Below are positions 16,983-22,218 of a stretch of 44,128 nucleotides of DNA, piece by piece. Under the pieces are notes generated by a model. The model ran no database searches. It was not told the DNA's origin and worked only from the letters and a program-made list of their open reading frames with translations. The stretch spans positions 1-44,128 of the forward strand of contig WFXS01000091.1 of NCBI GenBank assembly GCA_015490465.1, given 5' to 3'. The translations under genes were made by a program, and so were the position numbers. Source of the DNA: Caldifarciminota bacterium. Its GTDB lineage: Bacteria; Hydrothermota; Hydrothermia; LBFQ01. The first letter of the stretch is position 1, and the number at the start of each line of letters is the position of its first letter.

Positions 16983-17600
16983 ATGCTCGGGAGGTTTTAC
17001 GTCATACTGGACGACACCTACATTACGCCGGACGACGTTAAAGATATAACCGTTAAGGTGCTGAAAGGGGGTGCGGACGTACTGCAGTTGAGGAGCAAGA
17101 GATGGGACAGGGAAACCGTAGTGCGGGTTGCCGACAGTGTGTACCACATATCAAAGGATTTCGGTGTTCCGTTTATTATTAACGACTACGTTGACGTAGC
17201 CGTGGGTTACGACGGTGTCCACGTGGGTGCCGGGGACGTGCCTTACGAGAAGGCGAGGAATGTCCTCGGGGAGGATAAGATCGTGGGGGTTTCGTGTTAC
17301 GGATCCCTTACCATGGCCCTGCGGATGCAGGAGGCGGGGGCCGATTACGTCGCCTTTTCGTCGCCGTACCCATCGCCGACCAAACCCGACAAGGACGTAA
17401 CTTCCATAGACCTCATAAGGGAGGCCGCACGGGTCCTTCGTATTCCCTTTTACGTGATAGGGGGTATAGACGAGACGAGGGCCGGAGAACTCGTAAGGGT
17501 AGGGGCGTACGGTGTGGCGGTCGTAAGCGCCGTTTTAAAGGCCAGAAACCCTGAGGAGGCCGCCCGGAGGATAAGGGATGCGGTATATTCCACTGTTTAG
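16983..17600 (+). CDS. thiE: Thiamine-phosphate synthase
   Basis: Couples HMP-pyrophosphate with the thiazole phosphate to make thiamine monophosphate. 205 aa TIM barrel of typical length. Motifs: DVLQLRSKRWD (residues 34-44), FIINDYVDVAVGYDGVHVGAGD, VGVSCYGS, GADYVAFSSPYPSPTKPD (phosphate-binding loop), YVIGGIDETRAGELV, and GAYGVAVVSAVLKA. The motif order and lengths match ThiE closely; TenI-type paralogues usually lack parts of the TK loop seen here. The lipoprotein gene downstream overlaps its last 23 nt. No other thiamine genes are in the window. Confidence 0.93.
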   Translation: MLGRFYVILDDTYITPDDVKDITVKVLKGGADVLQLRSKRWDRETVVRVADSVYHISKDFGVPFIINDYVDVAVGYDGVHVGAGDVPYEKARNVLGEDKIVGVSCYGSLTMALRMQEAGADYVAFSSPYPSPTKPDKDVTSIDLIREAARVLRIPFYVIGGIDETRAGELVRVGAYGVAVVSAVLKARNPEEAARRIRDAVYSTV

Positions 17601-18312
17601 CCTCATCCTGACGTCCTGCTCGCTACCCTTCCTCAGGAAGGCACCCCCGCCGTACGAGAAGGTGGTCGTGGTGATCTCTCACGACGGGAAAGGGTTGTCG
17701 GCCGTACTCCCGGATACGGCAGTAAAGGTTCTAAAAATATCGCTGCTCGGTGATTACGGTAGGAGCGATTTTCACTTCGTTAAAAAGGTGCATTTCGGTG
17801 TTTACGATGGTAGTACGGCATCCTACGTGATGGATCCGAAAGAGGTGGCCGTTCTGGAAACCGACGTGGGGCAGGAAGTTTCGGAGGTAAGTCTGAAGGT
17901 TCACCGGATGATAAAGGCGCTTAAGGTCCCCGGAGAAGTAGAACTTATAGAGCCTGTATCCAACCTCCCCGACTGGGACAATATAACGGTCAAGTGGGAG
18001 GGGACTTCGGATATGTACGTTCTGAGGATCTACGCCTTTACCATGATGACGCGGAAAGACGAACTGGTACTCCTTGACAGTACACGCTATACCTTTGATC
18101 TCTCGCCCCTGTACGGGAACGGTTTCCTTAGCGTGATGGTCTGCCCTCTTAGTGGTAGCAGACCCGGGAGTAATGAACGGATAAAGGTATTTACGCTTGG
18201 AAAGTGCGTAAGCAGAACCCTCATAGTCGGAGATACGTCCGTATGGGAGGGGGAGACCCCGGAACCTCCGTGGAACGGGGACGATGTCCTCTGGTACCTG
18301 CTAATGATGTGA
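17578..18312 (+). CDS. Unrecognised lipoprotein
   Basis: 244 aa. The N-terminus MRYIPLFSLILTSCSLPFLR is a lipoprotein signal with lipobox LTSC, so Cys14 would be lipidated. The mature part is beta-rich. PEVELIEPVSNLPDWDNITVKWEGTSD-type sequence around residues 120-160 resembles a fibronectin III-like strand pattern ('W...Y.LR.YA'). No enzyme motif seen. The start overlaps the 3' end of thiE by 23 nt behind AGGATAAGGG. The C-terminus is Trp/acidic rich (PPWNGDDVLWYLLMM). After the stop, 18313-18366 holds nothing I can assign before the IS element. Confidence 0.7.
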   Translation: MRYIPLFSLILTSCSLPFLRKAPPPYEKVVVVISHDGKGLSAVLPDTAVKVLKISLLGDYGRSDFHFVKKVHFGVYDGSTASYVMDPKEVAVLETDVGQEVSEVSLKVHRMIKALKVPGEVELIEPVSNLPDWDNITVKWEGTSDMYVLRIYAFTMMTRKDELVLLDSTRYTFDLSPLYGNGFLSVMVCPLSGSRPGSNERIKVFTLGKCVSRTLIVGDTSVWEGETPEPPWNGDDVLWYLLMM

Positions 18313-18437: not shown

Positions 18438-18866
18438 TCAACCTTTTCGCCACATAAGAGCGAGAATTTCAACGGTATACCAAAAAAGACTTTTGCTGTA
18501 GGCGTGTCCTCTCCTGCGAAGACGAGCATTATGAATACGAAGGAGGTTATGAAGACCCTCGTTAAGGTTTATATAACCCTTGCTCTTTATATGAACCACA
18601 TGCTTGCCCTTTCCTTCAAACAAACCTTCATATCCCCTCCACCCATCCGTATGGTACTCATAGGCTTCGGGAAGAAAATCTATCACCCCCTTTAGACTCT
18701 CTTTATCCCGTTTTCGCTCCACTGCTACAAACCTGACCTTCAGAAACTCATTAACGTGTACTATCGCCGTGATTATCCACACCTTGTTCCTCTTGCTGAT
18801 GACGTACGACCACATCTCATCAATACTTATCCTTATTGCCCTCCGCAACCTTGAAAACAACATCAT
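18438..18866 (-). CDS. IS1 transposase catalytic part (InsB-like DDE), frameshift product
   Basis: DDE catalytic half of an IS1-type transposase, read after a -1 shift from the upstream InsA frame. ISIDEMWSYVISKRNK supplies the first Asp, YHTDGWRGYEGLF the second, and NEGLHNLLRIHNARLRRR the Glu in the position of IS1's IERHN motif. KSLFWYTVEILALMWRKG ends it. The Met used to begin the stretch at 18866 lies inside the fused reading frame; the zero-frame bridge is KKNFEDALRYIVTL. No internal stop is seen, so the element may be intact. Confidence 0.82.
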   Translation of the reverse strand: MMLFSRLRRAIRISIDEMWSYVISKRNKVWIITAIVHVNEFLKVRFVAVERKRDKESLKGVIDFLPEAYEYHTDGWRGYEGLFEGKGKHVVHIKSKGYINLNEGLHNLLRIHNARLRRRGHAYSKSLFWYTVEILALMWRKG

Positions 18867-18874
18867 GAGCGTAA

Positions 18875-19246
18875 CTATGTACCTGAGGGCGTCTTCAAAG
18901 TTTTTTTTGATATGTTCATGCGTATGGCTGCCTCGCTATACCCTAACACCCTCCCTATCGCACCATAACTCATACCCTCTGCCCTCATCTTTAACGCTAA
19001 CTTCAGATCCTCCTCCCTCATCCTCTTGTACTTAGGCTTCTCCACCATCCTCCTCCCACACTCCTTGCACAGATACGTCTGCCTCCCATCCGGCTTCTTA
19101 CCGTTCTTCACCACTTCCCTTGACCCACACCACCTGCACACTACCCCATGTTCCCCCTTCTTCCTCCTTACCTTCTTATTGCCCTTTAGTCTTACCTTTT
19201 TCCTTGCTTCTTCCATCTCCTGAAGCATCAGAACTAACCACTTCAT
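18875..19246 (-). CDS. IS1 InsA-like zinc-finger/HTH protein
   Basis: 123 aa. A basic N-terminus is followed by a zinc finger CRWCGSREVVKNG...YLCKECGRRMV (two CxxC pairs) and a helix-turn-helix (LALKMRAEGMSYGAIGRVLGYSEAAIRM). This is the DNA-binding half of IS1 transposases; alone it acts as repressor in IS1. Near its end the mRNA carries A8C (ATATCAAAAAAAACTTTG, minus strand, ~18900-18917), a slippery run where a -1 shift enters the catalytic frame. Without shifting, the frame stops at SKKTLKTPSGT. Confidence 0.82.
   Translation of the reverse strand: MKWLVLMLQEMEEARKKVRLKGNKKVRRKKGEHGVVCRWCGSREVVKNGKKPDGRQTYLCKECGRRMVEKPKYKRMREEDLKLALKMRAEGMSYGAIGRVLGYSEAAIRMNISKKTLKTPSGT
18900..18917 (-). 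promoter_or_regulatory. Programmed -1 frameshift site (A8C)
   Basis: An A8 run at the end of the InsA-like frame. Frame arithmetic shows a shift of exactly -1 joins the two transposase frames, as at the A6C site of IS1. Confidence 0.7.
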
Positions 19247-19325: not shown

Positions 19326-19331
19326 TATAAT
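19326..19331 (+). promoter_or_regulatory. -10 box (TATAAT) of the CPBP operon
   Basis: TATAAT, 8 nt, ATG; no SD. The IS end lies where a -35 would be, so the element may have altered this promoter. Confidence 0.6.
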
Positions 19332-19339
19332 ACTTTGTT

Positions 19340-20023
19340 ATGCAAAGTACTTTGAAACTGTGGCCTTGGATAACCGTAATCGCCATGACCTTGAGCCTCT
19401 ACGGGCTTTTCAGCGTAGTTGCCATCTCTGCCTACGTTCTCGCCACCGCTAAGAACCCACGTCTCGTCTCAATCGGCATATCTTTTATTTCGGCTCTAAA
19501 CAAAACCTTCTGGTTCCCCATGCTCATCGTAGCCCTCAACATCGCCCTCTGGGCTTTTATCTCCTACTGGAGGATAAAGGCCGGGGACGTTGCCTTCAAC
19601 CCCTTCCTACCCAGGGACCTCAGGAGGGAGGTCCTCACCTTCGCCATAGCCTTTACGGGCCTCTGGCTTCTGAACCTGTCCGTCAAGCTGTTCGGCCTTC
19701 AGGTGCATACTTTCCATCCCGAGAGGGAGAACCTCTTCTGGGCCTTTGAGGGCGCCCTCTTCGGCTCACTTGAGGAGGTAACCTGGAGGGCCTACGTCCT
19801 CAACGCCATCGGTGGGGTCTGGGGCCTTCTGGCCTCCGCCTTCGGCTTCGGCCTCCACCACCTCGGAAGCAGTTGGCAGCACGCGATATACGCCTTCGTG
19901 GCCGGTCTGATACTGGGAGGGGTGTATATGAAAACGGGGGCCTTCTGGGGCGTATTCTTCGCCCACGGCCTTTACAACTTTACGGCGATCGTCTGGTCAA
20001 TTCTGAAGGCAAAGGGAGGTTAG
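19340..20023 (+). CDS. CPBP-family intramembrane metalloprotease
   Basis: 227 aa, multi-spanning. The three CPBP (Abi/CAAX protease) motifs are present: FGSLEEVTWRAYVLN (EExxxR), GFGLHHLGSSWQH (FxxxH-like) and GVFFAHGLYNFTAI (HxxxN/B). FVAGLILGGVYMKTGAFWG is typical of the conserved helix between them. Members cleave prenylated or other membrane substrates, and in bacteria are linked to bacteriocin immunity or envelope signalling. It leads a five-gene operon with a duplicated-2TM protein, a glycine-motif protein, another membrane protein and a winged-helix regulator. Substrate unknown; a neighbour-encoded membrane protein is a reasonable guess. Confidence 0.88.
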   Translation: MQSTLKLWPWITVIAMTLSLYGLFSVVAISAYVLATAKNPRLVSIGISFISALNKTFWFPMLIVALNIALWAFISYWRIKAGDVAFNPFLPRDLRREVLTFAIAFTGLWLLNLSVKLFGLQVHTFHPERENLFWAFEGALFGSLEEVTWRAYVLNAIGGVWGLLASAFGFGLHHLGSSWQHAIYAFVAGLILGGVYMKTGAFWGVFFAHGLYNFTAIVWSILKAKGG

Positions 20024-20025
20024 AT

Positions 20026-20544
20026 ATGAGGGCTTTAGCAAACGTTTATGCGGAGTGGTTGAAGCAAAGGGAAAGGCGTGCTTTTCTGGAGCATGCGGCG
20101 TTTTACGTCCTCCTCAATTCCGCCTTTATCCTGATTAACCTTTCAACCTTTCCCCAGAGACTATGGTTTCAGTACCCCCTGCTGTTCTGGGGTTTCGGCC
20201 TCTTAATACACCTCGTCTCCGTCCTCTTCCTCGCTGACTACGGGGCAGTTGGCGAGAAGTTCGCCGCCTCCGTAGGCGGCAGGCCCTCCCGTGAGGAGTT
20301 CGTAAGGTTCCACAGGGAAAAGGCCCGCAGGGGCGTTATCGTACATGTGGTGGTATACGCCGTAGCGAACGCCATCTTCGTCGTCCTCAACCTGTCCCTT
20401 ACGCCCCATAAGATGTGGTTCATCTATCCGCTCTTAGGGTGGGGTGTAGGTCTCCTCTTTCACCTCATCTACGGCTATATGCTGCACGATTGGGATGGTC
20501 TGTGGGCAACTTTCGCTATAAAGGCAGAAGCAAAAGGAGGTTAG
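20026..20544 (+). CDS. Membrane protein with two tandem 2TM domains
   Basis: 172 aa. Two repeats share the 2TM-domain pattern. The first is FLEHAAFYVLLNSAFILINL...RLWFQYPLLFWGFGLLIH (residues ~19-67), the second VIVHVVVYAVANAIFVVLNL...KMWFIYPLLGWGVGLLFHL (~105-155). This is the 'F..H...Y...N..L..IN......WF.YPL..WG.GL..H' motif. Single 2TM domains commonly sit next to histidine kinases or LytTR regulators and may sense the membrane. The duplication is unusual. The start follows the SD GGGAGGT of the previous gene's end by a few nt. Confidence 0.8.
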   Translation: MRALANVYAEWLKQRERRAFLEHAAFYVLLNSAFILINLSTFPQRLWFQYPLLFWGFGLLIHLVSVLFLADYGAVGEKFAASVGGRPSREEFVRFHREKARRGVIVHVVVYAVANAIFVVLNLSLTPHKMWFIYPLLGWGVGLLFHLIYGYMLHDWDGLWATFAIKAEAKGG

Positions 20545-20548
20545 AGAT

Positions 20549-21166
20549 ATGTTTGCAGCACTCGTAGGCGCGGCTGGAGGTTTCGGATACTGGATGGTGG
20601 GATACGGATACGGGGAACTCGGCGATGTGGCGTCTTACCTCAAGGACGCTAACTATCCCGTACCCGGAAACGGTGGAATCCTCAGCGGAGGAGAGGGGTA
20701 CGCCCTCATAGGCAACCTCGTCATAGGAGGGGGAGGTTTCGGGATAACCCTGCAGAGTGCCACGTCCTCTCAGTACAACTCCAGCGCTTCCATAGGTGCC
20801 GGATACTTTTCCTTCGGATATACTCTTTTCAGTTCCACGAATCTCCTCGTCTTCCCCTCCCTCGGCATAGGTGGAGGTGGTGTGACCGTTAAAATCCGCG
20901 AGGCGAAGGGCGGTAGTTTCTCCGACCTGCTTCGGGATCCTCCCGTCAGCCTGACGCTTGAGAGTGAAGGCTTCCTCGTCAGGGGCGGTCTGACCTTTGC
21001 CTACAGGTACGCCTTCTTCGTGGTCGGCCTCAACTTCGGAGCAGCCTACACCATCGGATCCGGATGGCAGGTGAACGGCAACACCTCCACCGGATATCCA
21101 ACCTACAGGCAGCCGACCTTCTGGGGTACGCTCGTCGTAGGTGGTGGTGGATGGGGAGGCAAATGA
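20549..21166 (+). CDS. Glycine-motif beta-rich protein, unrecognised
   Basis: 205 aa. I do not recognise it. It is dominated by Gly/Tyr/Ser-rich strands, with the motif [L/V]-[V/G]-I/V-GGGG appearing three times: NLVIGGGGFGI (~58), SLGIGGGGVTV (~108) and TLVVGGGGWGGK at the very C-terminus. The alternating hydrophobic/polar pattern (FSFGYTLFSS, LTFAYRYAFFVVGLNFGAAYTI) suggests a beta-barrel. The N-terminus MFAALVGAAGGFGYWMVGYG lacks a clear signal peptide. SD AGGAGGT precedes the ATG. Between two membrane-protein genes in the operon, it is probably their partner. Confidence 0.65.
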   Translation: MFAALVGAAGGFGYWMVGYGYGELGDVASYLKDANYPVPGNGGILSGGEGYALIGNLVIGGGGFGITLQSATSSQYNSSASIGAGYFSFGYTLFSSTNLLVFPSLGIGGGGVTVKIREAKGGSFSDLLRDPPVSLTLESEGFLVRGGLTFAYRYAFFVVGLNFGAAYTIGSGWQVNGNTSTGYPTYRQPTFWGTLVVGGGGWGGK

Positions 21167-21174
21167 TAGGGAAA

Positions 21175-21210
21175 GGGGAGGGGAGTACCCCCCTCCCTCG
21201 TACTCCGGAG
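21175..21210 (+). promoter_or_regulatory. Two mutually exclusive hairpins between operon genes
   Basis: Stem A pairs GGGAGGGG (21176-21183) with CCCCTCCC (21190-21197). Stem B pairs GGAGTAC (21182-21188) with GTACTCC (21200-21206). They share bases and cannot both form. Stem B ends right at the SD (GGAGG, 21207-21211) of the next gene. No T-run follows, so this is not a standard terminator. Confidence 0.4.
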
Positions 21211-21218
21211 GATAAGAT

Positions 21219-21947
21219 ATGAAAAGGGATGAGATAAAGAAAGTTCTGGAAGAGATAGACGTACTGCTATTTCTTGCCAAAAAAGGGCGGGAAGAGGCCA
21301 AGCACTTCTTCTATCAGGTGGCCGTGTGGGGGACGTACGTATCCCTGAACATGACCCTCGGAATGTTCTTCCACTTTGACCTATGGTTCTATACCCTCTT
21401 TTTGGCCTTTGCTTTCTCCTCCATCTCCTTCTTCTGGGAGAGTGAGAAGTCTGCCCGTGCTATCGTTTTCCCTATGGTTGTGTGGTTACTCGGCTATCCT
21501 GTCGTTTTCATTACCTACTTTACGACCCGTTCCATCCTATGGACGGTCGCGGCCACCATCCTCTTCATATTCGTAGCCTCCGCCATCGTATATTCGCGTA
21601 CGAGATTACCCTCGCAACGCCGTACTCCTCTGGCTGCCGTGATAGGTAGTACCTGGGGAGTACTCTTCGGAAGCTTCTGGTTGATAGCCGCCCTATACCT
21701 ACTCCCAGATTTAGACAGGAACGCAGAAATATTCCAGGTCTGGATCAGCCAGATGTTCGGGGCAGGCCTCTTTATGTCGGGGGTTTTTCACAAGGTTTTC
21801 TTCCTCCTCGGCCTGATTATGCTCTTCGGCTTCCCCGTCATATACTACTTCAGCCGGTGGTGGGGCCTCGTCACCTACGACCTCGTCGCCCTTTCTATGG
21901 CCGTATCCGGTCTGGTCCTATACCTCCGATATGATAGAGGGACTTGA
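21219..21947 (+). CDS. Polytopic membrane protein, unrecognised
   Basis: 242 aa. A charged N-terminal helix (MKRDEIKKVLEEIDVLLFLAKKGREEAK) could be a coiled-coil cytoplasmic segment. It is followed by six or so membrane helices, for example VWGTYVSLNMTLGMFF, LWFYTLFLAFAFSSISFFW, AIVFPMVVWLLGYPVVFI, LWTVAATILFIFVASAIV, LFGSFWLIAALYLL and FFLLGLIMLFGFPVIYYF. No family motif recognised. The last 17 nt overlap the start of the winged-helix gene, a pairing seen for membrane proteins and their cognate regulators. Confidence 0.7.
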   Translation: MKRDEIKKVLEEIDVLLFLAKKGREEAKHFFYQVAVWGTYVSLNMTLGMFFHFDLWFYTLFLAFAFSSISFFWESEKSARAIVFPMVVWLLGYPVVFITYFTTRSILWTVAATILFIFVASAIVYSRTRLPSQRRTPLAAVIGSTWGVLFGSFWLIAALYLLPDLDRNAEIFQVWISQMFGAGLFMSGVFHKVFFLLGLIMLFGFPVIYYFSRWWGLVTYDLVALSMAVSGLVLYLRYDRGT

Positions 21948-22218
21948 CCCCATCATCCACAACCGCGTCCGCCTCGGAATACTCACGCTCTTGTTAAAAA
22001 ACGAACGCCTTGACTTCAAGACGCTACGGGAAGAACTCGGTTTAACCGACGGGAATCTGGCAAGCCACCTGAGGATCCTTGAGAAGGAGGGACTCGTCAG
22101 GTACGAAAAAACCTTTAAGGGTAGGAAACCGATAACTTACTACGAACTTACGGAAGAGGGGAAAGAGAGGTTTGAAAGGTACCTGAGAACGCTTAAAGAA
22201 CTCCTAAAGGGTCTCTAA
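21931..22218 (+). CDS. Winged-helix transcriptional regulator (HTH_34 / ArsR-like)
   Basis: 95 aa, one winged-helix domain: DPIIHNRVRLGILTLLLKNERLDFKTLREELGLTDGNLASHLRILEKEGLV, then the wing YEKTFKGRKPITYYELTEEGKERFERYL. No cysteines or metal site and no extra sensor domain, as in the single-domain 'winged helix DNA-binding' group often encoded with membrane proteins. It starts inside the preceding membrane-protein gene, so the two are coupled. It probably controls this operon; no operator could be identified at the promoter. Confidence 0.88.
   Translation: MIEGLDPIIHNRVRLGILTLLLKNERLDFKTLREELGLTDGNLASHLRILEKEGLVRYEKTFKGRKPITYYELTEEGKERFERYLRTLKELLKGL

Follow-up and report, generated by a model that had tools for sequence, protein, structure and literature searches.

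The 44,128-nucleotide contig WFXS01000091.1 of a Caldifarciminota bacterium (WOR-3; assembly GCA_015490465.1), here called the window, carries five genes, A to E, which are real and form a single unit in this genome. On computational evidence we propose, with a probability of about 0.62, that this operon is an autorepressed envelope-response unit in which the winged-helix regulator E would repress transcription at an inverted repeat at the operon head, with the polytopic protein D as its membrane partner. The sequence argues for one unit, for a site conserved at its promoter, for a code tying E to that site, and for a membrane gene next to almost all relatives of E. The elements of the unit are:

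19326–19331, + strand: -10-like box TATAAT, a consensus match, its last base shared with the operator-like repeat
19331–19349, no strand assigned: operator-like inverted repeat TACTTTG-TTATG-CAAAGTA, 0 mismatches; its spacer includes A's start codon
19340–20023, + strand: A, a CPBP/Rce1-like intramembrane protease of 227 residues (Pfam), motifs EEVTWR, FGLHH and HGLYN intact
20026–20544, + strand: B, 172 residues with two 2TM domains (Pfam), a dispensable member of the set
20549–21166, + strand: C, 205 residues, a predicted eight-stranded outer-membrane beta-barrel (AlphaFold2, Foldseek, VIA)
21219–21947, + strand: D, a polytopic membrane protein of 242 residues with a charged, probably cytoplasmic, N-terminal helix
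21931–22218, + strand: E, a stand-alone HTH_34 winged-helix regulator of 95 residues (Pfam) with the recognition motif TDGN

The unit begins with the repeat, slightly before the point at which the initial annotation had it start. That annotation described five close or overlapping genes in one operon, and we agree: all frames lie on the + strand, with gaps of 2 (A-B), 4 (B-C) and 52 bases (C-D) and a 17-base overlap of D and E. Protein A scores 57.6 bits against the Pfam family PF02517 (Rce1-like/CPBP; cut-off 22.4). CPBP proteases are marked by the motifs EExxxR, FxxxH and HxxxN, all of which are present in A. Protein B matches PF13239 (2TM) in two stretches with 86.1 bits (cut-off 24.8), while E matches PF13601 (HTH_34) with 96.8 bits (cut-off 27) over positions 1–80 of 80 and has PH1061 (1ub9) as its nearest solved relative. 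No family match was found in Pfam or NCBIfam for C or D (for D, none in Pfam at an E-value of 0.1).

The operator-like repeat and its probable reading by E

The repeat was traced from identical odd residues that opened the frames upstream of several such operons. With the pattern TACTTTG-N5-CAAAGTA, the copy in the window is the sole exact one in its own 2.05-Mb genome. Across 1.03 Mb of examined loci there are 40 matches with at most two mismatches (11, 16 and 13 at 0, 1 and 2 mismatches, against dinucleotide-shuffle means of 0, 0.05 and 3.65); these loci were chosen for C or E, and the counts therefore describe an association with these genes and not a genome-wide rate. Most of the matches sit at the head of a D-E operon, and C also has weaker sites where it stands away from D-E (two mismatches in genome G015, three in G024; G, C and L numbers are our labels for genomes, contigs and loci). 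In each of the six same-family copies that have the protease, the -10 position is TATAAT or TAGAAT; in the window the box at 19326–19331 is a consensus match only and was not called in a generic promoter scan. Outside the phylum, the repeat is found before plasmid-borne relatives of E in Bacteroides, Thermomicrobium, Persicobacter, Streptomyces and the archaeon Natronosalvus, in the last case with two mismatches and between a membrane-protein/regulator pair and a divergent CPBP gene. At 19343–19354 the right half-site of the window repeat continues as CAAAGTACTTTG, which gives a third half-site in most same-family copies; the same stretch encodes the conserved start of A, MQSTL, so that protein and DNA constraint are inseparable here.

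The best evidence that E may read this site comes from covariation between regulator and repeat. Relatives of E carry a T-X-G-N motif, which we place, by analogy with winged-helix structures, at the start of the recognition helix. Where X in this motif is acidic, base 3 of the half-site is C (23/23 loci); where it is K, R, A or S, that base is G (TAG or TGG sites; 9/9). When a single locus is kept per 60%-identity cluster, the agreement is 10/10 for acidic with C and 6/6 for the others with G (Fisher p 1.2e-4). The count covers 32 of 76 loci, the other 44 having a best site score below 16, a base 3 that is mixed or unreadable, or an unreadable T-X-G-N; mixed sites occur at L153 and L159. No locus whose base 3 reads as C or G contradicts the code, at any score. 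The relatedness of the loci is a caveat, yet both states are found in several phyla.

The D-E pair and its changing cargo

Within the set, D and E are the core. Among some 63 strong matches to E, we examined 51 loci, excluding the window copy, and in 46 of them the relative of E has an adjacent same-strand gene for a protein of 130–330 residues with at least four predicted helices (counted with a simple hydropathy window), no more than 60 bases away and usually overlapping. By the same criterion, 70 of the 805 other genes of these loci qualify, a control that includes neighbours of E and is hence not independent. The five uncounted loci comprise two in which D is present, either shadowed in gene calling (L035) or with three helices (L038), one with a 561-residue frame in between (L114), one at a contig end (L131) and one that has no such gene (L144). 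In profile-profile alignment (hhalign), D matches the other WOR-3 partner proteins with a probability of 96.7 over 193 columns, and the WOR-3 partners match the plasmid partners in an N-terminal stretch only (probability 93.2, 41 columns). Of 30 plasmid records with a relative of E, we read 24; wherever a gene table covers the site, a gene for a hypothetical protein terminates no more than 50 bases from the regulator (20/20, two of the regulators being unannotated), and in the Azospirillum record this gene is not polytopic by hydropathy count. At L129, L133, L134, L137 and L142, several membrane genes of about 200 residues stand in tandem before the relative of E, most with a large gene of 12–14 helices nearby.

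D was found in 19 of the phylum's 147 genomes, and for 13 of these 19 matches a C match lies within about 3 kb. The full order A-B-C-D-E is present in three genomes of the genus (the window's own, G000, as well as G003 and G005), A-C-D-E in three more of the family (G002, G004 and G006) and 2TM-C-D-E in G014, while G022, of another family, has CPBP, a 117-residue small membrane protein lacking a Pfam match, C, E and D in that order. In two further families (L058, L061, L064 and L070) the membrane gene between C and E is weakly or not recognisably D-like, and in G001 C and D-E are convergent at a distance of about 1 kb. In all, C and E occur together with D or another membrane gene in nine families of the phylum. 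The cargo of E operons in the phylum varies: besides C, it can be TonB-receptor-like proteins with CarboxypepD_reg domains (L112, L113, L118–L121 and L039) or subtilases (L124 and L126). In G004 (L031/L102), C is 89–90% identical to the window copy and D 47–48%, and B is absent; this operon is probably a mosaic in which the membrane partner was exchanged. In G009, C with an operator-like site stands at the start of contig C6 (L043), and D and E, with the 561-residue frame between them, at the end of contig C66 (L114), which looks like one broken operon.

The initial annotation had linked A and B by suggesting that the protease processes the 2TM protein. This idea does not fit the distribution of the two genes: seven operons carry the protease, and B occurs in three of them, is absent from three and is replaced in G022; the operon of G014 has a 2TM gene but no protease, the operator-like site standing just before the 2TM gene. 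We rejected the 2TM protein as the protease substrate on the ground that A and B are separable among operons.

The protease probably belongs to the regulon of E. A scan of the class (40 genomes, 54 CPBP matches, 34 sites with at most one mismatch) gave nine pairs of a site and a CPBP domain, the site lying 329–411 bases upstream, where 0.017 would be expected if each genome is taken to have 1.9 Mb. Of these nine CPBP genes, four are apart from any D-E (G002:C71, G010:C140, G015:C38 and G038:C4), and all exact sites in the class (8/8) are found either with a CPBP gene or with a D-E operon. We also considered whether A is MrtJ, the protease of the JDVT-CTERM sorting system; with 35.6 bits it falls below the NCBIfam cut-off of 75, and this assignment was rejected. 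A second CPBP gene of the same genome (G000:C8, L173 2632–4370) overlaps an ArsR-like winged-helix gene and a membrane gene that is SdpI-like by inspection, and the same trio is found in G004 and G005. Among the plasmid loci, two of 24, from unrelated groups (L157, Sphingomonas; L153, Natronosalvus), have a CPBP gene divergent from a pair of hypothetical protein and HTH_34-type regulator.

For protein C, an outer-membrane barrel of eight strands is predicted. The initial annotation had counted three GGGG motifs in it, as we did, and had placed it in no known family; its family is found in 84/147 genomes of the phylum, and C is no orphan. An AlphaFold2 model from nine sequences has eight strands, with a predicted local distance difference test (pLDDT) of 88.5 and a predicted template-modelling score (pTM) of 0.79. 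Foldseek and VIA match it to OmpA, OmpX, NspA and OmpW, with OmpA as the top Foldseek match (E 1.9e-5) and VIA-align Z scores of 15.8 for OmpA (over 163–172 residues), 15.2 for NspA and 14.0 for OmpX. The likeness to these proteins lies in the predicted eight-stranded fold; in contrast to it, the alignments show 8–14% identity, and C has neither a Pfam match nor an ordinary signal peptide. In the window clade, the barrel is preceded by about 8–11 residues that are hydrophobic and uncharged. By eye, many distant members and the G014 copy begin with an apparently ordinary signal peptide, and the distant members L063, L071 and L080 have PDZ-like domains between signal peptide and barrel. The cultured WOR-3 strain sy37 has both an inner and an outer membrane (PMC12285271).

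Two neighbours of the operon complete the picture. A lipoprotein-like gene at 17578–18312 (+ strand) has just 13 residues ahead of its cysteine and, together with the short N-termini of C, suggests that signal peptides in this class are unusually short. An IS1-like transposase in two frames (18438–18866 and 18875–19246, - strand; NCBIfam transpos_IS1, below cut-off) lies at the promoter side of the operon, and its frames stop 84 bases before the operator-like site.

Proposed mechanism and alternatives

In the mechanism that we propose, E would bind the inverted repeat at 19331–19349 and block transcription of A-B-C-D-E; we read E as a repressor from the position of the site over the -10 region and the start of A. 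The membrane sensor or partner would be D, whose synthesis is tightly coupled to that of E, and upon an envelope signal it would hold or release E and thereby turn the operon on, as SdpI does with SdpR or as has been proposed for HAAS and PadR proteins. As outputs, C would serve the outer membrane and A would cleave or remodel in the inner one; B would sometimes be a further output, but is not the general answer to what A cleaves because the two are separable. E is most likely the repressor of an envelope regulon to which the protease belongs, and D its membrane partner; that D takes E off the DNA as a sensor is suggested by analogy, and A and C may remodel the inner and outer membranes. The initial annotation's membrane-sensing module with a regulator gains support in this way. 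Its defence module does not: PADLOC matches none of A–D and E has only winged-helix similarity to CARF-type regulators, and a defence or phage system was rejected on the PADLOC result.

Several observations weigh against our proposal. A site (at most two mismatches to one of three site types) precedes the regulator in only 10/24 plasmid loci, and no full-length homology of D to the plasmid partner proteins was found (hhalign probability 14.7). Confidence in the model of D is moderate (70.9), and a search of the PDB gave no matching fold, the best E-value being 0.67. The absence of an ordinary signal peptide from the window-clade C proteins is awkward for an outer-membrane protein. Finally, a reversed-pattern control gave about 16 sites in the class at one mismatch, close to the about 15 sites that lie off these genes, and single-mismatch sites elsewhere should therefore not be read as targets; G053 has six such sites at most 81 bases from a gene start, several of these genes having, by eye, a signal-peptide-like beginning.

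Could the protease be the signalling step instead of an output? A would then cut D (or B) in the membrane and so free or remove E. The release of regulators through intramembrane cleavage is established in other systems and gives this idea a precedent; A is the first gene of the operon, and the same site precedes A even where it is unlinked. E, on the other hand, is soluble and free-standing, so nothing needs cutting for its release, and D-E pairs are far commoner than those linked to CPBP, many having subtilase or TonB-receptor-like neighbours. We regard such a proteolytic switch as unlikely. Equally improbable, in our view, is a role of E as an activator or as a general housekeeping regulator, in which case D would be a target of E and no sensor. 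The case for D as a sensor consists of adjacency and coupling, which leaves room for such a role, but a site over the -10 box and start codon is a repressor position, and a membrane gene stays beside E in 46/51 loci while the other neighbours change.

A further idea is that D-E (and A) protect against membrane-active peptides in the manner of SdpI-SdpR and of those CPBP proteins that are known as bacteriocin immunity factors. The window's own genome has a CPBP, ArsR-like and SdpI-like operon (at G000:C8), and SdpI, when it encounters the SdpC toxin, captures the autorepressor SdpR at the membrane (PMC1626106). We nevertheless find an immunity module distinctly doubtful: D has no Pfam match, E reaches 21.2 bits against the SdpR cut-off of 100, and neither the barrel C nor the TonB-like cargo fits. 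Chance clustering of unrelated genes, the outcome by which the initial annotation was to be refuted, has a negligible probability. The IS1-like transposase just upstream does imply a past rearrangement here, but gene set, site and recognition code are conserved across families and phyla, and the co-occurrence of C, D and E across families of the phylum leaves the operon standing.

Relation to known systems

The initial annotation knew of no described system with this set of genes, and we found none in the open-licence papers searched; nor did that literature yield a paper on the DNA site or the partner of HTH_34 regulators. The comparison thus concerns systems with parts of the arrangement. 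In the HAAS-PadR dyad (mSystems 2024, PMC11237479), a stand-alone winged helix is likewise accompanied by a neighbouring, often multi-helix membrane protein with a helical cytoplasmic part; the dyad is linked to envelope genes and has been proposed as an alternative to two-component systems. E differs in being an HTH_34 protein that scores 25.2 bits against PadR (cut-off 27), and D has no match to DUF1700/DUF1129 (HAAS). The window operon goes beyond that dyad in its operator-like site, in its recognition code and in a regulon of protease and outer-membrane genes.

SdpR-SdpI of Bacillus subtilis is similar in that a small winged-helix autorepressor is encoded with the polytopic membrane protein that can remove it from DNA (PMC1626106). 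In contrast, D has no SdpI match and E stays far below the SdpR-type cut-off, the order in the window is membrane protein then regulator, and no toxin gene is seen. A nearer parallel is an HTH_34 regulator by creD on a Bacteroides plasmid (L149), which has a membrane protein, the same site (one mismatch) and an envelope-integrity gene downstream; it differs in that CreD replaces the protease and the barrel, the function being given by annotation.

By profile, the window operon is neither PadR, HAAS nor SdpRI, and we take it to be probably a new variant of the membrane-protein/winged-helix dyad. At about even odds, HTH_34 proteins with membrane partners would form a general envelope-signalling dyad in bacteria and archaea, with TTTG-N5-CAAA operators, a one-residue code (at base 3, an acidic residue reads C and a basic or small one G), and CPBP proteases and barrels as conserved output in several lineages, the window combining regulator, sensor, protease and barrel in one self-repressed unit. 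HTH_34 regulators occur in many phyla, and their function can be approached directly through the operator predicted here, a recognition residue open to testing and a target that they share. Bacterial CPBP proteases, which are poorly understood, would be tied to a regulator that could say when they act. The operon suggests a mode of envelope sensing that has been little described, with a DNA switch that recurs beside related regulators of other bacteria and of one archaeon.

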